Below are positions 2,419 through 51,043 of a stretch of 64,000 nucleotides of DNA, piece after piece. Under the pieces are notes generated by a model. That model was not told the DNA's origin, did not search any database, and saw only the letters and a program-made list of their open reading frames with translations. Position numbers and translations under genes: made by a program. Position 1 is the stretch's first letter. Each line of letters opens with the position of its first letter. Origin of the DNA: Dysidea avara (taxonomy: Eukaryota > Porifera > Demospongiae > Dictyoceratida > Dysideidae); assembly GCF_963678975.1 (NCBI RefSeq), contig NC_089280.1, forward strand, positions 34,601,508-34,665,507, in the 5' to 3' direction.

Positions 2419-4479
2419 TACGGGCACTAATTCAGTTCTTGGATTTCAGAACAATGATTTTTTCCTTATATGATTTTGCTAGTGTACAGAGAAATGTCAT
2501 TAATCTCACATTTTGTTGCATGGTTAATTGGCAGAATTATATTTGTTGATAAACCATATCAGCAGACTGATAATTTGGTTGATGGGTTCCACATTCACTC
2601 ACAACGACATTGGACCAATAACAGGATTGGCAGAATTTTGGTTGCACCAAGTCTCTCAATTAAATTCCCTGCCATTTCAACCACATATAACAACATTAGC
2701 TATGTGTTGTGGATTATAAAACAGGCAAATGTCAGTAGCACAAAGGTTCCCTCCAAACTGATGCTCTTATGATTCAACATCAAATATTCTACTACATGAT
2801 ATCTTGTTAAAAAGTCTTAGTGAGTGTTTCTAACATCAAATAATATAGTATCAAAACTTAGAAAAAACTTACAGAATCACAGATAGCTATTACTTTTTAA
2901 AAATTGCCGATTCTGATTGTTGGTCTGTCCGCTAGCTGAGCACAGTTGTAAAACCTATAGTGGCTATACAGCTCATTGTACAGTTACTATCTTATGTCTA
3001 GCACAACAAAGTAGAATTGAAGATAAAGACAAGGCACAGAGAGCAATTGGTCTTTTGAACCCCAAATGGAATATAATATTATGAGTTTGCTATTGTGGAA
3101 ACCACATCAAGGCGTTCATTTTCCATACCAACACTTTCTTTACTGACGAGAATATAAATATCACAAAATAGTTCTAAGTGCTTATGCTATCAGTTGCACT
3201 TGTTATTATTGGTTTGCTGGAGAAAACAGAATGCATGTGACCACACCCCTTAATGATTATACTATCCCTCTACCAGTCCATGTCAAAGTAGGGATTTTCC
3301 CACATAGCCATGTTGTAATACCATTATCCATTGTTTCACAACTTTATAGCACTTGAATTTATACTCTTTAAATACTGACATGTAAAGCATTGAAGTGTGA
3401 CTAGAAAGTGATACAATGAACACATAGTTAATTGGGTTAAGGAGTAATTTTAATTCACTTTGAAGCTACATATACGAGTACCTGACACACAGAACAATGC
3501 ATGTAGATTGTTATGTAATCAGTAGACTGGAAATCACACACATTATAGATTATGTGATTGTACTATGTACACTCATGTAACCATTAAGTGTTGTAGTACA
3601 GCGTCTTGTAGCTACAGAATAAATCCTGCCCTTATACATGAGGATTTGCCAATACTGGCTAGTCACAATATAAGTAATGCACCAGTGATACACTGGATTA
3701 GTATACCTGTGTAAACAGCAGCCGGCTTTGTGTGCATATGCATGGGTGTGTGTAGTATGTGTGTTTGTGTGTAAAGTATGTGTGTGTATGTGTGTGTATG
3801 TGTGTATCTCAGTATGGTGTGTAATATGTGTGTTTGTATGTATATATAGTATATATAGTGTGTGTATGTGTGCGAGCATGATTTAAAAGCTTTAAAGCAT
3901 TCACTGTAGTCAGCTGCTTTATCACTTCTGTGTGTTATTACATCGAGAATAATCTCTATAGCAACATGGACTGAGAGGAAGTCTTGATCTTATAGGACAG
4001 CTACTATACAGTAGAACCTTTCTGAGAGGTTCTACTGTAGAGTAGCGAAGAATTCTTAGAAGACCCTCCCTGTAAAGGATGCTGTATGTACATTTAACTT
4101 CCTTATAAAGGATTGTTCTGATGCCATTTTACTTCTGTAAAGACAACCAATTGAGACTTCATCAAATCAGTCAGTCACAAAAGTGACTGTTAAATATTCC
4201 ACTGTATGTTATGTAGTAGTGTTTGATAGGAGTGGTGACTGTACTGTTTATGGAATGTGTGTAGCGGTGTACTTGCAATGTAAACTTTCAAACCTCACTA
4301 CATTTCCAGTAACAATTTAAATAACTAATTACTATAACAAGTATACTAAATTAGTAGAACCTCACCCAATTACTCAGTTGGCTATATATATACTGCTCTC
4401 CTCTTTGTTTGGTCATTTAATTGTGTCAGAGAATTTGGTAGGGAATCAACCAAACCTGTGTCTACATGTTGTACTGAAA
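2419..4479. repeat. Spacer between GSTK copies, part of the tandem unit
   Basis: No supported gene. About 2,420-3,330 is closely similar to 9,345-10,470 after copy B, and 3,880-4,479 is similar to 10,820-11,340 before copy C, so the spacer is part of the duplicated unit. A GT-rich microsatellite lies at about 3,735-3,880, and a small palindrome (AGAACCTTTCT...AGAGGTTCT) at about 4,012-4,032. Confidence 0.6.
3735..3880. repeat. Interrupted GT/ATGT microsatellite
   Basis: About 145 bases dominated by GT and GTAT units with interruptions. It lies in the GSTK A-B spacer. The open frame on its minus strand is a His/Thr repeat and is not a gene. Confidence 0.8.
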
Positions 4480-35579: not shown

Positions 35580-38500
35580 ATGTATCAACTCAGAGGAATC
35601 TGGAAAACAGCTCTCATAGTCTGCTTATATGGTCAGTACGAATGCACCTGGAAAAATCAGTAGCAATGATCAGAACACTAGCTAACGTGTAGCCCCAAGT
35701 GTACATATTGTACTGTTCCCAAGGTATCCATTGTACAGTAGTCCCAAGGTGTACACAAGGGACTTCACATTATGCACTGGTTGTAGGTGCCTGGATTGCA
35801 CAGACCCTTATTATTGTACTGGTTTTGAAGTGCCCATATCATATTAGCTGCACTATATTATTAAGCAAATTACATGCTATTTCTCAATAGGTGCAGTGAC
35901 AGTGTTGGGACAAGACACTGATCAATGTGCCACTCTCATGCCATGTCAAAATGATGGAAGGTGTCGAATGATGAATGATGGAGGCTACGAATGCTTCTGT
36001 GTACCAGGGTGGACAGGAATAAACTGCACGATACAAGTAGATGAGTGCGCTAGTGACCCTTGTAGGAATGGAGGAACATGCACTGATCTTCAGCTGGACT
36101 ATCAGTGTGACTGCCTACCAGGTTTTACTGCTGAGGATTGTTTTATTGATATTGATGAGTGTGGATCATTGCCGTGTGACAATGGAGGCACTTGTATGAA
36201 CACATATGGTAGTTTTGTGTGCTACTGTCAACCAGGCTACACCGGCAGTACGTGTGACATTAATATTGATGATTGTCAAAATGACCCATGCCAAAATGGT
36301 GCAAATTGTATAGATTTAGTAAATGATTTTCAATGCCAATGCCCTGCTGGGTTTACTGGAGAAAGGTGTGAAACCAATACAGATGATTGTGCCAGTAACC
36401 CTTGCACAGATAGCTCTACCTGTGTAGATCTTGTAAATGGTTTCTCTTGTATGTGTATACCAGGATTCACGGGGTCTAGATGTGAGACTGACATAGACTT
36501 TTGTGACTCTAGTCCATGTGTGAATGGGAACTGTACAGAAAGGATTGACGGGTTTGAGTGTATTTGTGAACCTGACTATACCGGCACCCAGTGTGAAGCC
36601 ATGATCAACCAGTGTGATCCAATGCCTTGTGAGAACAATGGAACATGTGAAGACTTGGGACTGACTTATCAGTGTACATGCAATGGTGGCTACACAGGAG
36701 TAGATTGTGAAGTGATAATATGTGACACAGACCCTTGTCTTAATGACGGTACTTGCGAGAGCATCGTGGGTGGTTATATGTGCTCATGTGTGGATGGTTT
36801 TACTGGTACAAACTGTGAGGTCAATATTGATGATTGTGCTGGTGATCCATGCCAGAATAATGCTACTTGCATGGATGGGATCAACATGTATGACTGCATT
36901 TGTGTCAATGGCTACACAGGTCAAAATTGTGATATTGAAATCAACGAGTGTATGCCCAACCCATGCCTGTATGGAGAATGTAGAGATCTCATTGGAGAAT
37001 ATGAGTGCATTTGTCCAGTGTATTTCACAGGTCGTCAATGTGAGATTGACATCAATGAATGTGACTTTGGCTACTGCCAAAATGGAGCCACTTGTGTGGA
37101 GCGTAATGTAACTGAGCTGCTGGTCACAAATGACACTGCATACTACTGTATATGTCCTAGTGGATTCACCGGATATAACTGTTCAGTCAACATTGATGAT
37201 TGTCCACCTAATGCTTGTACCAATGGCGGAGTATGTGTTGATGAAATTGACAACTACTTTTGTAGATGTCCGGAAGATTTCATAGGAAGTAGATGTGGAC
37301 TACTTGAAAGATTAACTTTTATGGAGACTAACTCATATCTAGCCTTGAACGCTACAATTGATTCAACTGAAGTTACCATAAGTCTTAATTTTGCTACTAG
37401 TTTTTCCAGTGGTATAGTCTTCTATGCCAGAGGGGTAAGCCAAAATATGTCATTAGCTACTGCATATATAATATTATTCTTTGTTATACAGGTCAGTAAT
37501 ACACAGTTCTACATGATCAATTCAATATCACTGGAACTATCTTATGGTAGTTTGCTATTCAAGTACAACTCAAATGATAATCCTTTACTAATAAGACTTG
37601 GTGATCAGCTAAATGATGGAGAATATCATGCTGTGACAATACAGACATTCAACAATGGATCTGTTCTGTTGTGTGTTGATTACGCTTTGTGCCAGAGCAG
37701 TGACAGTGTTAATCCAGGGGTTACCTTTAATACTGAGTTACCTTTTTATATTGGAGGAATTGAAACGACATCCAATGAAAGTATGTATTATTTAACAACC
37801 AGTTCATCAATGATTGGTGCTATAAGTAACTTTTCGATTGATGGAGAATTATTTGATTTGTTACCAAACAGCAGCAGCACTTTAGGATCAAGAAATATCA
37901 TAGTCAGTCATCAAAGAGTAGATCAGTGTGATTCTAAACCATGTTTGAATGATGGCCAATGTACTGACATGTGGTTCAGTTATGAGTGTCAGTGTGCAGT
38001 AGGGTTTAGTGGTGAAGATTGTGGCTTTCAATATCTGGCCAACTTTGACAACCATTCTTTCCTCCACATCAATGATGATGGACAAGTAACATCTCTCTCA
38101 CTAGAGTTCTCTACACTATCTAGTAATGGTGTTCTCCTGTACACTGGAAATGTGAGTGTTAATGTCATTATAGTACTTGTTAGTAATGTGTGACTGCATC
38201 TTGTAGAGCACGGCTGGTGTGCAGGTAGTGGCAGAACTGGTGTCTGGTACATTACATGTCTCATTCACTACTGATCCTCTAATGATGGTACAGTTAGGGG
38301 GTGATCTACATGATGGAGACTGGTACCAGCTCAACATCACTATCATCAGTGGAATGGCTACAGTACAGTTAGGAAGTGATCCAACACTGCAAGCAGATGC
38401 AAACCTGTTAGGTGGTGTGGTGTATGGTCCAGTGCTGCTTGGTAGTATGCCAGTTGAAAACTCTGACAGCTTTGGAGGATGTGTCAGAACTCTTAGTATA

Positions 38501-41500
38501 AATAAGGTCCCTATTAACCTGGATATCAAGGTTCCATATAGTGAAAATGATCCACCATTTGCCTCAGCTAGTTGTCCACGGGAAGAAAATTGTTCTCCAA
38601 ATCCTTGTAGGAATGATGGTGCATGTACATCTAGCTGGGGTAGCTTCAGCTGCAGGTGTTCTCCTGATTCTACTGGCCCCACTTGTGGTGAATGTAAGTG
38701 TCCACTGTAATGTTACATAACATGCCATATTCCTCCTACACAGCTGTGGCTGTTTCATTCAGTGGCAATATAAGTTTTGCACGCTATCCAGTCACTGAAA
38801 GAGCATATGATTTCTTTGAGAGTGGCAGTGTTACGTTAAGAACACGAGATGATGATGGTATTATTCTTCATGCTGGATGGCAGGAAAGTCATCGATTATC
38901 AGTACACCAATATTTGATCTTAGAAATTATTGGTGGTGATCTACGGCTTGCTGCTTTTGATATATTAAATGGAGGTTAGATATATAACATTTAGTTCATT
39001 ATTAATTTTATTGATCCTGATACCACAGAATCATTTGCAAGTTTCGATAATTCACCTGTTAATATTACTGATGGGGAATGGCATACCATTCAATGGATTT
39101 ATGATCGTAATTCAAATGAGGTGTCCGTCCACATTGATGGTTCTTTACAGAGTCCTACAATCACTTGGGGCAATGCATACCAGTTAGCAGCTGATGGTAC
39201 AGCTTATCTACACCTTGGAGGACTGACCAGTTTTGATAGTTTACAAATTCTGGGACAGTCAGATGGAGTTTTTGTTGGAGGTAAAAATGCAATAAATTAA
39301 GAAAAATGTTTTAATTTACAATAGAATATTTCATGCACACTTTAATACATGCCTGGTTTACTGAAATTGCTAATGAAATAATGTGTGTATCCCTACGCAG
39401 GGGCGGATCCAGACTTTTTAAAAAGGGCTCTGGAATTACAACTTTAGCCTAGCTGTAAATTGAAGACCAAAAAAAAAAAAAAAAAAGTCATCACCTGCTG
39501 ACAATAGCTGCCCCTCACCATAGATATCCTCACCAACTATATTTCCTTATTTATAACTTCACATGTAGCCTGCTACACTGCTCCTCTTAAAGTATCTCAA
39601 GTAAAAGAAGGTCTTTCCACACGATCTAGATAGCAATTCAGATTTTTGAGCTGGATGTGACCTTGTTACAATAAAACAGAGGTGAACAATGCTAGCAGCA
39701 GTTTTCTAGTTTTAAATGTACAGGTCTACGTATGCAAAAATAATCAGTATGCAGTGGTTAAAGTAATTACAAATTGAAATTATTTTAAAATAAAATTTTT
39801 AAGTGTTCATGCATTATATGTAGCAAGAAGAAAAGCTAATGGGTTAGCTACATAGCTACATACATATACAAAGCAGAAAAATGTTTAAGGCTTCGTCATG
39901 CTAAATGCTCAAATTTATTCATGTACGTAATTAGTGGACATGGATGGTTTCCAAAAGTTTATTGACTGAATACAATTGTGCCTGCACACAAATTCTACTA
40001 ATTTTGACACCCAGTTCCTATTTTCAGAGCTGGCCGGCACTTATTGCATAAGATCCTGCTTTATGAAATGTGTCTAATTTATGCTGAAGACTATAAGTTA
40101 GTGCTCTGCTTTAAAACTTCTTGAGCATGTGCTGCACTGTAGCACATACATCATCCAATTCATCATCACACATGATCTAATTTGGGTCAGAACCAGCATA
40201 CTCTGATAGAGGATGAGACTAACTTGATCACTTCCAACCCTAAATTACATCTCTAATTGGTACAAAAATAAGATACATCTCCTGAATCATCAGCTGAACA
40301 AACTTCATATAACCAAGATTTGTATCTTTAATGTTTTTTTCCTGAAGGAATGGCTTAATTTGGTATGTAAAGTTTGTTTGGATATTTAGGGTTAGTGCTT
40401 TGGCTGGACTTTACAGAGGTGTTGATTTTTATAAGTATAAGGTCCAGTTTAAATTGTTGTACCTCTATCATGTAGTATCTATACACTAAATTGTATCTCA
40501 TATGTTGTGGATCAAGGTGCTTAAATAAATGGCATTTTCTTTTAGAATCTTCTTCTCAAGATTATTTACGTTGCTGCATATCAGGTGTCATATTGGATGA
40601 CAGGCAAGTGTTATTATATAGTGATGAAAGTGTAGCATTGTTTAACACTGAAAGAGACTGTCCTAACTTGTGTGATACCAATCCTTGCCCTGAGAACAAT
40701 ACTTGTTCAGGAGGATATGAGGAGTTTACTTGTGACTGTAATGAAGGCTTTACTGGAAATGACTGCTCTATCAATGTTGATGATTGCACCATTGATTCTT
40801 GTCTGAACAATGGAACTTGTGTTGACTTGGTGAATGCGTTTATGTGTATCTGTGCTAGTGGATATACTGGTAGTAAATGTTCAATTGATATTGACAATTG
40901 TGCCCCTAACCCATGTGAGAATAATGGCACATGTTTTGATGGGGTAGATGTGTTTACATGCAATTGTACTGCTGGATATACTGGGGATAATTGTTCTATC
41001 AACATTGATGACTGTATTGCTAACTCTTGCTTCAACAATGGTACTTGTATAGATGGTGACAACATGTTCATTTGTGAATGTGTTAGTGGCTTCACTGGAG
41101 ATGACTGTTCTATTAATATCAATGATTGCACTGATGAACCTTGTCTTAATAATGGTACTTGTGTGGATGATGTGAACGCATTCATTTGCATCTGTGCTAA
41201 TGGATTTACTGGGAATAACTGCTCCATTGATATTGACGATTGCGCTCCTAATCCATGCGATAATAATGGAACTTGTATAGATGGTGTTAACGAGTTTACT
41301 TGCTCCTGCACCAGTGGCTTTACAGGAGATAACTGTTCAGTTAACATTGATGACTGTACTCCTGATCCTTGTCTCTACAATGGCACATGTGTAGATGGTA
41401 TAAACACATTTACTTGCAACTGTATTAGTGGATTTACAGGGGAAAACTGTTCTATTAATATTAATGATTGTACTCCTGATGTGTGTGAAAATAATAGTAC

Positions 41501-44500
41501 TTGTATAGATGGGGTAGACACGTTTACATGTGATTGTGTGACCGGATTTACTGGTGATAACTGTTCAGTTAACATCGATGATTGTACTACTGACTCGTGC
41601 CTCAACAATGGTACTTGTGTAGATGGTGTGAACATGTTTACTTGTGATTGTATCTCTGGATTTACTGGTGATAACTGTTCAATAGATATTGATGATTGTG
41701 CTGCTAACCCATGTGAAAATAATGGCACTTGTATAGATGATGTAGACATGTTTATCTGTAACTGCATCAGTGGCTTCACAGGAAGAAACTGTTCAATCGA
41801 TATTGATGATTGCTCTCCTAATCCATGTGATAATAATGGCACTTGTGTGGATGGTGTGAATGAGTTTACATGTGACTGTACTACTGGATTTACCGGAGAT
41901 AACTGTTCAGTTAACATTGACGATTGTACTCCAGACTCATGCCTTAACAATGGCACCTGTGTAGATGGCCTGAACACATTTACTTGTGATTGTGTTAGTG
42001 GATATACTGGAGATAATTGTGCTAATGATACTGATGATTGTACTCCTGAATCTTGCTTTAATAATGGCACTTGTATAGATGAACTAAATGGATTCACTTG
42101 CAGCTGTGCTAGTGGCTTCACAGGAGGTAATTGTTCAATCGATATTGATGATTGCACTCCTAACCCATGTAATAATAATGGCACTTGTATGGATGGTGTG
42201 AATGAATTTATGTGTGACTGCACTGCTGGTTTTACTGGAGATAATTGCTCAGTAAACATTGACGATTGTACTCCTGACTCATGCCTTAACAATGGGACTT
42301 GTGTAGATGACCTGAACACATTTACTTGCAATTGTGTTATTGGGTTTACTGGAAATAATTGTTCAATGGATATTGATGATTGCTCTCCTAATCCATGTGA
42401 AAACGATGGCACTTGCGTGGATGATGTTAATGAGTTTACTTGCGAATGTGGTGCAGGGTTTACTGGAGATAATTGTTCAGTAAACATTGATGACTGTACA
42501 CCAGAATCCTGTATGAATAATGGAACTTGTGTGGATGGAGTGGATACATTTACGTGTAACTGTTCAACTGGATTTACTGGTGATAACTGCTCCATCAACA
42601 TTGATGACTGCACGGTTGAGTCTTGTCTGAACAACGGCACTTGTGTAGATGGTCTTAATACATTTACTTGTAATTGTGTTAGTGGATTTACGGAGGAAAA
42701 CTGCTCTGTTAATATCGATGATTGTACTCCTGATCTGTGTGATAATAATAGTACTTGCATAGATGGTGTGGACACATTTACTTGTGAGTGTGTAACTGGA
42801 TTTACTGGGGAAAACTGTTCAATCAACATTGATGATTGTACAACTGGCCCATGTCTCAACAATGGCACTTGCGTAGATGGTGTAAACATGTTTACTTGTA
42901 ACTGCCTTAGTGGGTTTACTGAGGATAACTGTGGATTTAATATTGATGATTGCACTCCTAACCCATGTGATAATAATGGCACTTGTATGGATGGTGTGAA
43001 CGGGTTTAATTGTAACTGTACTACTGGGTTTGCTGGTGATAATTGCTCGATAAACATTGACGATTGTACCCCTGACTTGTGTCTCAACAACAGCACTTGT
43101 GTAGATGGTGTGAACTCATTTACCTGTGACTGCGCCATTGGATTTACTGGGGATAACTGCTCCACCAATATTAATGATTGCACTGCTGGATCCTGCCTTA
43201 ATGGTGGTACTTGCGTAGACTTGGTGAATACATTTACTTGCCAATGTCCATCAGGTTATAGTGGGTTGATGTGCCAGACAGATATTGATGAGTGTGACCC
43301 TAATCCTTGTGAGAATAATGCGACTTGTGTGCCTGTGGATACCTTGTCCAGTGGTGATGGATTGGACACTGTAGGTTCTGGGACCACTATAATATGTAGG
43401 TGTCCACCAGGCTACTATGGGGATACCTGTGCTAATGTGAACCAGTGTACATTACTAACACCATGTCAGAATAATGGCACATGTGTAAATGTGAGTAACA
43501 GCTACAGGTGTGACTGTTCTCCTGGTTATAATGGTACAGACTGTGAAGTTAACATAAATGAGTGTGAGCCAAATCCTTGTCAGAATAATGGAACATGTGA
43601 AGATCTAATAAATGGTTTTGCTTGTATGTGTCAAGATGGTTATGATGGATATACTTGTTCTATTGATATTAATGAATGTGAGATTAATCCTTGTGTTAAT
43701 GGTGTTTGTATGGACTTGATCAATAACTACACTTGTGGCTGTAATGTTGGTTATGAAGGTCGTAACTGCTCTGACAATACTGATGATTGTTCTCCTAATC
43801 CTTGTGGTAACAATGCTACTTGTAGTGACCAGTTGGCTGATTATACTTGCAACTGTACAGCTGGATGGACTGGGAAGAATTGTACTGAGGACATTGACGA
43901 GTGTTTGAGTGTTACTTGTCAAAATAATGGAACATGTCAAACACCAGAGTTTAATAGTTTTGTATGCATGTGTCAACCAGGGTTTACTGACCAATTCTGT
44001 CGAACTGATATTGATGATTGTGAGAGCACAACTGAGTTGTGTATGAATGGCGGAACTTGTGAAGATGCCATCAATAACTATATTTGTTCATGTGCTGTTG
44101 GCTTTACAGGACGTAACTGTGAGACTAATATTAACGACTGTCTACTACCAGATCTATGTGGACCAGGAACATGCATAGATGAGATCAATAACTTCACTTG
44201 TAACTGCACAGGAACTGGCTTCACTGGAGATAATTGTAGTGTTGATATTAATGAGTGTGACAACCAACCTTGTGTTAATGGTGACTGTATTAATGAGATA
44301 GGATCGTTCCAGTGTAACTGTACTACTGGATATACTGGACTATCATGTGATGAGAATATTGATGAGTGTTCTAGTGGACCTGTATGTCTCAATGAAGGTG
44401 ACTGTATGGATCTTGTCCCAAGTTTTGCCTGTATCTGTCAACAAGGGTATACCGGCACTTTATGTGAGACAAACATTGATGAATGTGTCTCCAGTAATTG

Positions 44501-46820
44501 TACCAACAATGGAACTTGTATGGATCTTGTCAATGGCTACATGTGTGTATGTCCACAATGTTTCTATGGAGACTCCTGTGAGTTTGAAATAGAGTTTTCT
44601 GTTTGTGCTAACTGCACTTGTCAAAACAATGCAACATGTGAGCCAGACAACATGCCAGCTAGTGGCAGTGGAATGGACACAGGAGAGATACTGACAAGGT
44701 GTATATGTCTGCCTGGTTTCACCGATGACAACTGCTCCACTAACATCGATGATTGTGAGCCAGTTGATCCATGCTTGAATAATGGAACATGTATTGATTT
44801 AGTTAATGATTACATGTGTGAGTGTCTTAATGGATTTGATGGAAACGAGTGTCAGAATAACATTGATGAATGCTCACCTGATTTGTGTGACAATGGCACT
44901 TGCATAGATGGAATAGCAAACTACAGCTGTGAATGTTTTGTTGGATTTACTGGTCTTAATTGTGAGATTAACATTGATGATTGTGAATCAATGCCGTGTC
45001 AAAACAATGGCACATGTGTAGATGGCATAAATGAGTTTACATGTATGTGTGCTGATGGATACGGTGGACCTGAAGGGGTTTGTGATATCCCTAATCCCTG
45101 CATCCTGTCACCACCGTGCCAGAATAGTGCAGACTGCTTTCCCACTGGCACTGGTAACTACACATGTAGTTGTACACCAGGATACACTGATAGAAACTGT
45201 AGCATTAACATTAATGATTGTGACCCCAATCCTTGTGGGAATAATGGTACATGTACTGATGGCATCAACGACTATATCTGCATGTGCCTGGATGGATACA
45301 CTGGTAGCAATTGTACTGTTGAAATTAACGAATGCAGTCCTGAGCCATGTATGAACAATGGAACTTGTAATGACTTGATTAACAATTACACATGTTCGTG
45401 CTCTACTGGGTACAGTGGTAGAAACTGTCAAATTGAGGATCAGTGTATTCTTCGTAATCCTTGCCAGAACAATGCTACATGTGTGAGTGATAATAATGAC
45501 TATACCTGTTCATGTGTTCGTGGCTTCAATGGCACCAACTGTGAGATAAATATCGATGATTGTGAGTCAATGCCGTGTGAAAATAGTGGCACTTGTACAG
45601 ATGAAGTTGATGCATTTACTTGTACCTGTCCATTTACCCACACTGGAGCTTTCTGTGATGTGGAGAATCCTTGTGCTATGAGTGACACATGCATGAACAA
45701 TGGAACATGTATCAATGTTGACATCAGCTTCATGTGTGAGTGTGTAGCTGGCTTTACTGGTGTAAACTGTGAGAGTGAACTGAATGAGTGTGAGCCAAAT
45801 ATTTGTGAGAATAATGGAACGTGTGTTGATCTAATAAATGGTTTTGCTTGTATGTGTCAAGATGGTTATGATGGAGATACTTGTACTATTGATATTAACG
45901 AATGTGAGATTAATCCTTGTGTTAATGGTGTTTGTACAGACTTGATCAATAACTACAATTGTAGTTGTGATGTTGGTTATGAAGGTCGTAACTGCTCCGA
46001 CAATATCAATGATTGTTCTCCTAATCCTTGTGATAACAATGCTCCTTGTAGTGACCAGTTGGCTGATTATACTTGCAACTGTACAGCTGGATGGACCGGA
46101 AAGAATTGTACTGAGGACATTGATGAGTGTTTGAGTGTTACTTGTCAAAATAATGGAACATGTCAAACACCAGAGTTTAATAGTTTTATATGCATGTGTC
46201 AACCAGGGTTTACTGACCAATTATGTCAAACTGATATTGATGATTGTGAGAGCACAACTGAGTTGTGTATGAATGGCGGAACTTGTGAAGATGCTGTCAA
46301 TAACTATATTTGTTCATGTGCTGTTGGCTTTACAGGACGTAACTGTGTGACTAATATTAACGACTGTCAACCTAATCCTTGTGAACCAGGGACATGTATA
46401 GATGAGATCAATGACTTCACTTGTAACTGCATAGATACTGGCTTCACTGGAGATAATTGTAGTATTAATATTAATGAGTGTGAGAGCCCACAGCCACCTT
46501 GTTCTAATAGTAGTATTTGCATAGATGAGGAAGGAACATTCCGATGTGAGTGCTTCCAAGGATTTCAAGGGGACAGATGTGAAGAAATCATACCAGAGCC
46601 TGGAGATGATAATGACATAACAGCACTGGTGATTGGCTTGGCAGTTGGCCTTGTTATAGTGACAATACTACTAGGATTGATTGTAGCATATGTGGCATAT
46701 AGACAACATCGTAGTAACAAGTACAGTGGATCATACAGCCCCAGGAATGCTGAAATAGCAAATGGACGTCATGGAGATGATGAAACTGATAGTGCAGGAA
46801 AAACTGAAAGATTAATATAA
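35580..46820 (+). CDS. crb-like: Crumbs-type transmembrane polarity protein, 3166 aa
   Basis: Exons: 35580-35631, 35891-37434, 37492-38151, 38207-38693, 38744-38974, 39029-39280, 40546-46820; 9501 nt, phases all consistent. The first exon, chosen by phase and hydrophobicity, encodes a signal peptide (WKTALIVCLYGAVTVLG). Order: 12 EGF repeats, laminin-G (about 493-673), EGF, laminin-G (713-877), EGF, laminin-G (916-1110), 51 EGF repeats, a membrane span (about 3103-3125) and a 40-residue tail. The EGF/LamG alternation, the juxtamembrane GSYSP (GTYxP in known Crumbs, FERM-binding) and the C-terminal ERLI (the PDZ ligand for Pals1/Par-6) identify Crumbs, a regulator of apical polarity. Notch is excluded: there are no LNR or ankyrin repeats. 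Human CRB1 has about 19 EGFs, so this protein is greatly expanded after the third LamG. Most repeats carry NNGT and NCS glycosylation sequons. Confidence 0.93.
37435..37491 (+). other. 57-nt stop-free intron in Crumbs LamG1
   Basis: GTAAGC...TTATACAG lies between ...FYARG and VSNTQFY. The length is a multiple of three and it has no in-frame stop, so retention would insert 19 residues into the laminin-G domain. Called an intron because removal restores a normal LamG sequence. Confidence 0.8.
39281..40545. other. Intron 6 of the Crumbs gene with a partial hAT-like MITE end
   Basis: No gene. At 39,397 CAGGGGCGGATCCAGAC resembles the ends of the elements at 20,243 and 31,866, followed by a poly-A run (39,469-39,486). 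No matching right end is found. The rest is AT-rich with nothing recognised. Confidence 0.6.
40770..43180 (+). repeat. Array of about 21 near-identical 114-bp EGF repeats
   Basis: Repeats 2-22 after LamG3 are each 38 codons, built on DDCxPxxCxNNGTCxDGVNxF with FTGDNCS(V/I)(N/D)I. Alternating types recur: NPC...DGVNEF followed by DSC/PC...DG(I/L)NTF. This suggests expansion by unequal crossover of multi-repeat blocks within the one large exon. Confidence 0.85.
43555..44240 (+). repeat. Six-EGF block duplicated at 45,781-46,463
   Basis: EGF repeats 26-31 after LamG3 (from NECEPNPC to GFTGDNCS) recur as repeats 45-50. The offset is 2,226 nt over most of the block and 2,223 nt at its end. Long DNA stretches are identical, so this is a recent internal duplication. 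Confidence 0.9.
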
Positions 46821-48000: not shown

Positions 48001-48724
48001 TCATACTGGAGTTCCTTCAGGTGGGATAAAAATAGATGCATCAGTTCCAGGACGGACAGCCTCTCCGACATGTTGCTACAAAACAGTGGCAATAAGTGAC
48101 AGTGTGTGTTATGTGATCAGCTTACCCATCCACCCTGTTCTTGAATCCATGTCCCAAAATCATGGTCATTTAAAAACCTTGCTACATATGTAGCAAATTC
48201 GTTCTGACGGCTGACATCACCACCAGCATGTTGCAGTTCTGTACTGATCCTCAAGTACCCAGCATATATCAACAGTATTTGCTCCCAGCGGTCAGATACC
48301 CCATTAACCGTAAGGTGTAGGGCACCCATACAAGCATCACGAAAACTACCATATGTCACATCCCAAATAGACCTCTGTACTTGTGCATTAAATTCTTTTT
48401 CTAGCACACCTCTGTATCTATCTGCAGTGAACCTTAGCTTTTGTCCCAACAGTTCTGCCGCCTGCAGATGGGAATCATCCGCTTCTATGTCTGCGCCAAC
48501 ACGTTCCATTGCTGATTGACCAGGTCCTTTTGTAGAAACTAAATAGATCAAACATAATGACCTGTTAGTTATGTCAAGTTTAGCTTACGGCATTCGTTGA
48601 CGATCAAAACTTGCTGTTCGCGGACCTGCAGTTGCGCTAGTACCAAGGCCAGCGTCTTCGTTTCAGCGAGGAACGCCTCCTCACTATCCGCACTCGTCAA
48701 CCGCTCTACCTCCATACTCGCCAT
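48001..48724 (-). CDS. Bcl-2 family protein, copy 1
   Basis: Apoptosis regulator of the Bcl-2 fold, 207 aa. Exons 48724-48589, 48538-48126, 48075-48001 (624 nt, GT-AG). BH3-like segment: LGQKLRFTADRY. BH1-like region: NGVSDRWEQILLIYAGYL, without the usual NWGR. BH2: WIQEQGGW, the clearest mark, with the intron placed right after GGW. The last exon encodes 24 residues ending PPEGTPV and has no hydrophobic anchor, unlike most Bcl-2 proteins. I cannot tell pro- from anti-apoptotic from sequence alone; the BH2 resembles Bak/Bax-type proteins. The start MASMEVERL gives the only open first exon. It is head-to-head with DUSP12, 132 bp between start codons. Confidence 0.88.
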
Positions 48725-48856
48725 GTTTGTCTGAGTCAGCTAATTTATTTTGATGCTCTTTACATAGACACTAAGCATATAGTGCGCTTCAATTAGAATA
48801 ATGCACGGCTTTAATTAGAAACAAATTGCACCATAGATTATCAATAATTGCAAGAA
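48725..48856. promoter_or_regulatory. Possible bidirectional promoter, Bcl-2 copy 1 / DUSP12
   Basis: Only 132 bp separate the divergent start codons at 48724 (minus) and 48857 (plus). It contains both 5' untranslated regions. A shared promoter is inferred from spacing. Confidence 0.45.
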
Positions 48857-51043
48857 ATGGTGGTGTTTAAGATTAGAGACGGGCTGTATCTAGGCAGCGA
48901 AAGTGACGCTTTGATGGTAGACAGACGAAGAAAATGCTCACAAGTAATATCTCCAATTACTCACATATTATCAATCACCAACCAACCACCAGAATGGGAG
49001 AAGGCTTGTTTAACTGGTGAAATCTGCACGCTACACATTGAAGCTAAAGACATGCCATCCTCCGACCTGCTACAACACTTTGAAGCGTGTATTGATTATA
49101 TTGAAGGCGCTAGGAAAGCAGGAAGTGTGCTTGTCCATTGGTAAGTGCATTTTACTGTGGAATAGCATCTGACATTGTCCAATATACCTCTAGTATGTAT
49201 GGAGTGTCTCGCAGTACAACTATTGTAGCTGCTTATCTAATGAAGTCTGAAAAATTGTCACGGGATGCTGCTCTGCAGAGTATAGTTGCCATCAAACCAA
49301 GTGTCAAGTTAGTTTGCTATTTGACTGCTCTATTAGAGACATTGTATGGTTGTGTTGCTAGGCCCAACTATGGTTTCATGGAGCAGCTAGAGATATGGGA
49401 GGACATGAGGTGGTGTATTGATCCACAGCATAAGTCGTTCATGAGTTATAGACTTGGGAAGGTGGCTAAAGTAATGAAAGGCAAGTTAATTAGCCAAGTG
49501 AAGTGATATGGTAGCCCTCTCTTCTTAGACTATTATAATTAAGTGTCATGATTTTAGAGGTCTGAATGTGTGTACTAATACAAATGGCCATGGAACCTAC
49601 CATGAACCGGACAATTCTTTTTTCATAAAATAAACATTTTCTTTATATAGAGGGAGGCCGTGTTGACTTATTTCCATCACCTGACCCCGCTACTGGATCA
49701 CATGATCACAATATAACATACAAGTGCAGGAAATGCCGGTAAGATGTAACTAAAGTGACCTGACTGTATTATCATCACCACAGAAAACTATTATTTACTG
49801 ATAAAGATGTCCTACCACACGAGCTGGGAGCTGGCTCTACTTTTAAGCAGCAACAACAACAATCAGTGGGCACACAACAAAGAGAAGATCCAATTCAAGA
49901 GACTTTACTAGACACTGAACCTAAGAGTAAACTGGTATCTCATTGTCATGACTCTCCAGTTACCCACAAAATTGAAGAGTTGAAAATTGTGGATGAAACT
50001 AACACAGCTAATAGTGTAGCAGAATCATCTCATGGTGTACCTCACTCTGGTGATAGTCCTGATGAGTGTACTAGTGTTACCGGGGCAACTTGTGATGACC
50101 CTCTTGTTCCAATTACAGCCCATCACTCACCCACCAAGACTACACATTGCACATCATTGTTCATTGATACAGTGGAGTGGTTGTCAACCATCATCGTGGG
50201 GACCTTGGATGGAAAGGTAGGAGTGTTTTCATATCTCATAACATTATTACTTGGTGTGCTTGTCCTTTCAGATATCATGTCCCAAGTGTGCTGCCAGATT
50301 GGGCTCCTTCAGTTGGTCAGGTAAAAGAAACACTGCCAGGCTCAGTACATAACTGCACCCTTTATACAATAAGCATTCTTTTACACATCCCCATCCTTAA
50401 CCAGCATAATATATTTCACAGGCTGGACTGAGCTAGTAATATTGATCCAGACAAATATCTAGTCTTGTATTGCTGGAGGCGCTACAACTGTGTGCTTTCC
50501 ATAACTTGACTCATACAGAACAGTATCTTGCCATGTTGTTTGTTTTGTTTACTTCAAGAGACCATCCTCCTCCCAGCAATTGTTTGCCCAACAATATGTT
50601 TATTACTGTTTGGTCATTTAATAAAATTTCACAACACATTTTTGAAGAGCAATATCATCAATGAATGTTTGTCAGCATTTACAGACACTACATATAAGGG
50701 TGTAGCCTTTGGTTGGTTAGTAGTAGCAAGAGGAGAACTTTTGTTGGCCTTATATCAATATCTCATGTTGAGAGTTAGGGTACCTGGAAGAATGGCCTGT
50801 CCTTTGCTTGCGCTGCTTACTAATAATGACTATAGTCATTACTATATTACTACTAGAGTCATTGTAAGATGTTTGATTTATTGTGTTTGTGATTTACCCT
50901 TAGTAACGTGTTTTGTCACAGGTGCAAGGTGTTCATGTGGACAATGGGTGACCCCATCCTTCCAGATACACAAGAACAAGATAGACCAGTGTCTTCCTCA
51001 TGAAGCAGTGACCTTCCCTCATAGAACTGACCCTAGAACATGA
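48857..51043 (+). CDS. DUSP12: Dual-specificity phosphatase of DUSP12/YVH1 type
   Basis: 402 aa. Exons 48857-49140, 49194-49307, 49362-49480, 49651-49738, 49784-50216, 50272-50320, 50922-51043 (1209 nt). The N-terminal phosphatase domain starts IRDGLYLGSESDA. The active-site loop spans an intron and reads HCMYGVSRS (HC-x5-R intact). Then come NYGFMEQLEIWEDM and YRLGKVAK, as in DUSP12. The C-terminal zinc-binding domain has CRKCRKLLF, CTSLFIDTVEW, CPKCAARLGSF and CSCGQWVTPSFQIHKNKID. Known DUSP12/Yvh1 proteins act in 60S ribosome maturation and stress responses. Exon 5 is longer than in vertebrates, with a Ser/Thr/Pro-rich insert and a short Gln run. Intron 3 has an AAAG|GCAAGT donor (GC-AG type); intron 2 is 54 nt and stop-free. 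AATAAA is at 51,256. Confidence 0.93.
49308..49361 (+). other. 54-nt DUSP12 intron containing a MITE-associated motif
   Basis: GTTAGT...GCTAG. It includes TTTGACTGCTCTATTAGAGA, the reverse complement (one end base apart) of the TCTAATAGAGCAGTCA motif found in several MITEs here. Length divisible by three and no in-frame stop. Confidence 0.75.

Follow-up and report, generated by a model that had tools for sequence, protein, structure and literature searches.

A stretch of 64,000 nucleotides from Dysidea avara (contig NC_089280.1, positions 34,601,508 to 34,665,507), referred to here as the window and numbered from its first letter, carries a gene that is very probably the Crumbs orthologue of this demosponge-like animal. 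The predicted product is a type I membrane protein with a head of EGF and LamG domains, a stalk of 51 EGF repeats, one transmembrane helix and a cytoplasmic tail of about 39 residues, and the stalk appears to have grown within the last exon. The original prediction had assigned the gene to Crumbs, an identity supported by the domain order, the alignment of the tail and the gene structure. The account is built on the established architecture of the protein, the match of its tail to a known Crumbs, the single strong match of that tail in the genome, the divergence of the repeats and the location of candidate partners.

The tail ends in ERLI, a class II PDZ-binding motif encoded at 46806-46817 (+) by the codons GAA AGA TTA ATA directly before TAA, which bears out the C-terminus that had been predicted. 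The tail's length of about 39 residues is that of the short Crumbs tails (about 37-39 residues), and its last 37 residues can be aligned, gap-free, with the tail of Drosophila Crumbs (PDB 4wsi/4yl8); 12 of the 37 positions are identical, namely G, Y, S, P, E, N, R, D and ERLI. When the sponge tail was shuffled 200,000 times, no shuffle attained 12 identities and four ended in ERLI; the resemblance is not due to chance. A phmmer search of the PDB with the 77-residue transmembrane-plus-tail segment returned unrelated proteins only (best HLA class I, E 0.017), so that the evidence from the tail depends on the direct alignment.

Closer to the membrane lies GSYSP (46728-46742, +), the core of the FERM-binding motif. 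This motif has been defined as RxxxGxYxPS, and the Crumbs end as ERLI (PMC5968619). The corresponding stretch here is NKYSGSYSPR, in which G, Y and P are kept (three of the five consensus residues), and the consensus R and S have become N and R. The loss of two consensus residues counts, like the phmmer result, against the Crumbs assignment. The "intact cytoplasmic code" of the original prediction thus holds for the PDZ end, where ERLI is complete, and does not hold for the FERM motif. Demosponge Crumbs proteins were reported in 2018 to retain three of the five FERM-motif residues, and an ERLI-type end is reported from three of four sponge classes (PMC5968619). The two threonines phosphorylated by aPKC in the TxGTY sequence, a bilaterian and cnidarian feature, are represented by one tyrosine and one serine. 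Because PMC5968619 reports both threonines as missing from all sponges studied, they are not defining for the sponge members of the family. The serine (46731-46733) stands in place of the second threonine (GTY to GSY) and may still be phosphorylatable, though PMC5968619 calls both sites absent in sponges.

The genome searched comprises 550.8 Mb in 108 contigs. With the transmembrane-plus-tail segment as query, the gene's own locus was found at E 1.1e-44 and the next match at E 0.0026, leaving one strong match. Four of the 11 other matches were read as possible second Crumbs tails (L010, L011, L014 and L018) and none of the four ends in ERLI; the remaining seven have E values of 0.225 to 4.3. 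By eye, L011 is cadherin-like and L014 kinase-like. A single Crumbs copy per sponge is reported (PMC5968619). Against this stand the several Crumbs-like coding regions cited for Amphimedon (PMC9729800).

From the genomic sequence only, we infer a splice model in which seven exons on contig C9 (35580-46820, +), delimited by reading frames and splice signals, are joined to encode 3166 residues. All six introns are of the GT...AG type and the spliced frame is open until a single terminal stop; intron 1 measures 259 bp, introns 2-5 measure 50-57 bp and intron 6 measures 1265 bp. The start codon lies in exon 1 (35580-35631), as does part of a segment that is hydrophobic, resembles a signal peptide and runs on into exon 2 (35891-37434), which encodes EGF 1-12 and the beginning of LamG1. 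Exon 3 (37492-38151) contributes the remainder of LamG1, EGF 13 and the beginning of LamG2, and exon 4 (38207-38693) the remainder of LamG2 and EGF 14. The initial part of LamG3 is in exon 5 (38744-38974) and its middle in exon 6 (39029-39280). Exon 7 (40546-46820), whose frame is open for 2114 codons, holds the last part of LamG3, EGF 15-65, the transmembrane helix, the tail and the stop codon. The limits of the gene, the length of the protein, the count of 65 EGFs and the domain order had all been predicted exactly, as judged by the gene model, the cysteine pattern and Pfam.

The protein thus begins with a signal-peptide-like segment, followed by 12 EGF, LamG, one EGF, LamG, one EGF, LamG, 51 EGF, one transmembrane helix and the short tail; EGF repeats interspersed with LamG domains are the ectodomain pattern of Crumbs. 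The figure of 65 EGFs is a count of cysteine patterns; Pfam recognized 14 EGF stretches within the last 603 residues, the sole EGF portion submitted to it. All three LamG domains exceed the Laminin_G_2 cut-off of 22.9 bits, with 52.0 bits for LamG1 (37390-37848, +), 45.4 bits for LamG2 (38107-38506, +) and 43.4 bits for LamG3 (38836-40598, +), the coordinates being worked out from the gene model. Each domain is crossed by at least one intron (one in LamG1, one in LamG2, two in LamG3, whose final part lies in exon 7), and splicing raises the scores: LamG1 reaches 52.0 bits against 46.5 bits unspliced or in part, and LamG2 45.4 bits against 27.9 bits when only exon 4 is scored; the piece in exon 3 matches no family by itself. 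The most hydrophobic stretch of 19 residues is 3104-3122 (mean hydropathy 3.05) and the second lies at the N-terminus (residues 6-24), so that by hydropathy alone the protein has the signal peptide and the single transmembrane helix (46623-46691, +, approximate limits) of a Crumbs.

Eyes shut (EYS) proteins also combine EGF arrays with LamG domains; they are secreted and lack a transmembrane helix. The gene might accordingly encode an EGF/LamG adhesion protein of another, for instance Eyes-shut-like, family that has acquired an ERLI end by convergence, and the best LamG match elsewhere in the genome, among the 70 of 412 candidates that were scored, does lie in an Eyes-shut-like gene on contig C5 (29% identity, E 2e-11). 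This reading is highly improbable, given the gapless match of 37 tail residues to fly Crumbs, the single EGF between successive LamG domains and the transmembrane helix. In the C5 gene, EGF pairs follow three of the four LamG frames in view, and neither a transmembrane segment nor an ERLI end was noticed by eye in 3.6 kb around and beyond the last frame. The present protein differs from Eyes shut in having one EGF between LamG domains, the ERLI tail and, at residues 3104-3122, a strongly hydrophobic segment that is at odds with secretion. The C5 gene (L038/L039, G000:C5:6212001-6230000, minus strand) consists of an extended array of EGFs, of which 1736 codons are in view, then four LamG frames and, by eye, fragments of a probable fifth. 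Near-copies of parts of it occur about 460 kb off (L041, G000:C5:6682001-6692000) in an apparent segmental duplicate, and a more distant LamG-EGF relative is found on contig C3 (L042, G000:C3:16405001-16415000).

The gene structure further indicates that the EGF/LamG part and the ERLI tail belong to one gene, which is much likelier than two, because the tail shares its exon, the last, with the end of LamG3. The opening of exon 7 reads like the conserved end, or last strand, of the LamG fold, its phase matches that of exon 6, and its inclusion lengthens the Laminin_G_2 match in LamG3 from position 104 to position 124 of 126. LamG3 scores 43.4 bits with exon 7 and 42.0 bits without it (Laminin_G_2), and 35.7 against 35.0 bits with Laminin_G_1. 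As the exon 7 frame has no methionine ahead of EGF 16 (coordinate 40842), it needs an upstream exon. That exon could belong to a second gene, if an EGF/LamG protein (exons 1-6) were followed by a separate EGF-transmembrane-ERLI protein made from exon 7 and a first exon of its own. Such an arrangement would agree with the far greater length of intron 6 (1265 bp against 50-57 bp in introns 2-5), with the small gain of 1.4 bits (Laminin_G_2) or 0.7 bits (Laminin_G_1, whose match is not extended, 1-102 against 1-104) that exon 7 brings to LamG3, and with four candidate first exons in the correct phase, one of them hydrophobic (39944-40013), found in intron 6 when any GT donor is allowed. When the donor is held to GTNAG, intron 6 yields no candidate first exon and the identical scan of the exon 1 region, run as a control, yields one; a narrower scan of intron 6 with GTRAG also yields none, a weak result since it misses the actual exon 1 as well. 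Together with the in-phase apparent last LamG strand at the start of exon 7, which extends the match to 124 of 126 positions, this makes two adjacent genes very unlikely.

Intron 6 also contains, at 39395-39490, CAGGGGCGGATCCAGAC followed by a poly-A stretch. This resembles the end of a DNA transposon, although a transposon at this place remains unproven. A terminal inverted repeat was not found within intron 6; one inverted pair of 20 nt, 80% complementary, is present there.

The large size of this Crumbs appears to have arisen in exon 7, for the most part through the tandem amplification of 22 EGFs, which is old, and a younger duplication of six. The tandem array (EGF 16-37, 40785-43292, +) has a 114-bp period and a higher-order period of 342 bp. 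Six-EGF block A (EGF 40-45, 43545-44255, +) and block B (EGF 59-64, 45771-46478, +) are 92.8% identical in nucleotides over aligned codons, and array and blocks all lie inside exon 7, between LamG3 and the membrane. Array units share a mean nucleotide identity of 71%, with mean proportions of synonymous and nonsynonymous differences of pS 0.68 and pN 0.19. Synonymous sites are thus near saturation, which with the low pN marks the array as old and constrained. Blocks A and B have 206 of 236 aligned residues identical, a synonymous divergence (dS) of 0.13 and a ratio of nonsynonymous to synonymous divergence (dN/dS) of 0.49; by these comparisons the block duplication is the more recent event. 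The dN/dS of the blocks and the excess of pS over pN in the array agree with coding sequence under selection. Repeats of this kind, a 114-bp array with a block pair at 92.8% identity, could also reflect collapsed or duplicated repeats in the assembly. Such an artefact is highly improbable as the source of the giant stalk, since neither array units at 71% identity nor blocks differing by a dS of 0.13 represent one sequence read twice, and the frame stays open across 2114 codons.

In human CRB1 the stalk beyond LamG3 has few EGFs. Measured against Drosophila Crumbs and human CRB1-A, 65 EGFs is a large number. Elsewhere the genome has EGF-rich open frames of 2597, 2825, 3014 and 3344 codons, among the 150 of 2420 candidates that were scored. 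The numbers and positions of EGF and LamG domains in Crumbs are reported to differ among ten cnidarian and bilaterian species (PMC9012326). In the sponge the stalk would have lengthened, and the head would have kept its domain order and the tail its length, both as in other Crumbs. A further step is the tentative and rather doubtful proposal that repeated internal duplication built the membrane-proximal stalk to 51 EGFs, with head order and 37-residue tail unchanged, and so turned Crumbs into an adhesion rod or spacer of tunable length. If this were true, the LamG head would sit on a rod of perhaps more than 100 nm, a rough estimate from the size of an EGF module, and extracellular reach could evolve independently of the polarity-signalling tail.

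The protein most likely acts like the Crumbs of other animals, and we infer its localisation, binding and function by analogy with them. As in fly and mammal, the ERLI end would be bound by the orthologue of PALS1/Stardust through its PDZ domain, or by Par6, and this binding would build an apical scaffold with PATJ. The GxYxP motif may dock a FERM protein in touch with the actin cortex, probably more weakly or differently than in bilaterians, and the ectodomain may engage itself or its neighbours. Expression of the Crumbs, Pals1 and Patj genes in the sponge Oscarella is reported to drop on dissociation and to climb on reaggregation; at one time point Crumbs, alone of the three, was called differentially expressed (PMC8380372). 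This fits a role of Crumbs in sponge epithelia.

Seven guanylate-kinase loci were found in the genome, and in tblastn all seven match human PALS1. The top PALS1 candidate, on contig C10 at about 14.239-14.242 Mb, comprises a PDZ piece of 30 residues (57%), an SH3 piece (60% over 45 residues) and guanylate kinase (GuK) pieces. When the SH3 and GuK pieces are joined, by eye, they reach 228 bits against human PALS1 and 128 bits against DLG1. Four observations weigh against the C10 assignment: the GuK piece alone matches best with ordinary guanylate kinases (54.4 bits; PALS1 46.4 bits), PALS1 is by a narrow margin the best match of a C12 locus (5.459 Mb) as well (72.5 bits against 71.9 bits for CASK), SH3 and GuK pieces occur at three further loci, and no SH3-GuK chain of other MPP proteins is among the PDB matches. 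A PALS1 orthologue is likely present in the genome, judging from these matches, with its assignment to a locus not proven. The candidate for PATJ is a frame on C5 at 36.4536 Mb with an L27 domain followed by a PDZ domain. The best PDB match of the L27 domain is PATJ (E 0.0016; SAP97 E 0.02) and the best single-domain match of the PDZ domain is MUPP1. Less favourably, the L27 domain stays under the Pfam L27_2 cut-off (19.2 against 27 bits, E 0.66) and multi-domain DLG4 chains rank above MUPP1; a search for L27_N gave no match and is uninformative, as the controls gave none either.

Beyond the Crumbs gene, the window contains a frame on the minus strand (48117-48584) that resembles a protein of the Bcl-2 family, with a Pfam match to Bcl-2 (E 1.1e-4) under the curated cut-off. 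A dual-specificity phosphatase gene is probably represented by pieces at 48848-49506 on the plus strand, the first of which matches Pfam DSPc with E 6.6e-5, under the cut-off.

The original prediction's wider claim, that sponges keep the binding parts of the apical polarity machinery, stands for the PDZ end and in part for the FERM motif, and is already in print (PMC5968619). Among the papers searched, none names both Crumbs and Dysidea. What is new is the history of the stalk and a complete genomic model of the gene, probably a sponge Crumbs, that speaks for a single gene encoding LamG part and ERLI tail. Candidate PALS1 and PATJ partners are located for binding tests. The published view that sponges possess a Crumbs complex is unchanged.

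Compared with the sponge Crumbs proteins described in PMC5968619, the present protein is alike in its EGF and LamG ectodomain, its ERLI-type end and, as in demosponges, three of five FERM residues. With Drosophila Crumbs it shares three LamG-like repeats among EGFs, a 37-residue tail, and GxYxP and ERLI at identical spacing; it has 65 EGFs against 27-29 in the fly (PMC5312091). The fly motif RxxxGTYSPS corresponds to NxxxGSYSPR, and the two aPKC threonines of the fly to a tyrosine and a serine. The cytoplasmic spacing therefore matches that of fly Crumbs, yet the strictly kept part of the code is the PDZ end only. Human CRB1 is likewise similar in its EGF and LamG ectodomain and in a short tail that carries FERM and PDZ motifs, and differs in length, with 1406 residues for CRB1-A against 3166 here (PMC11129452).

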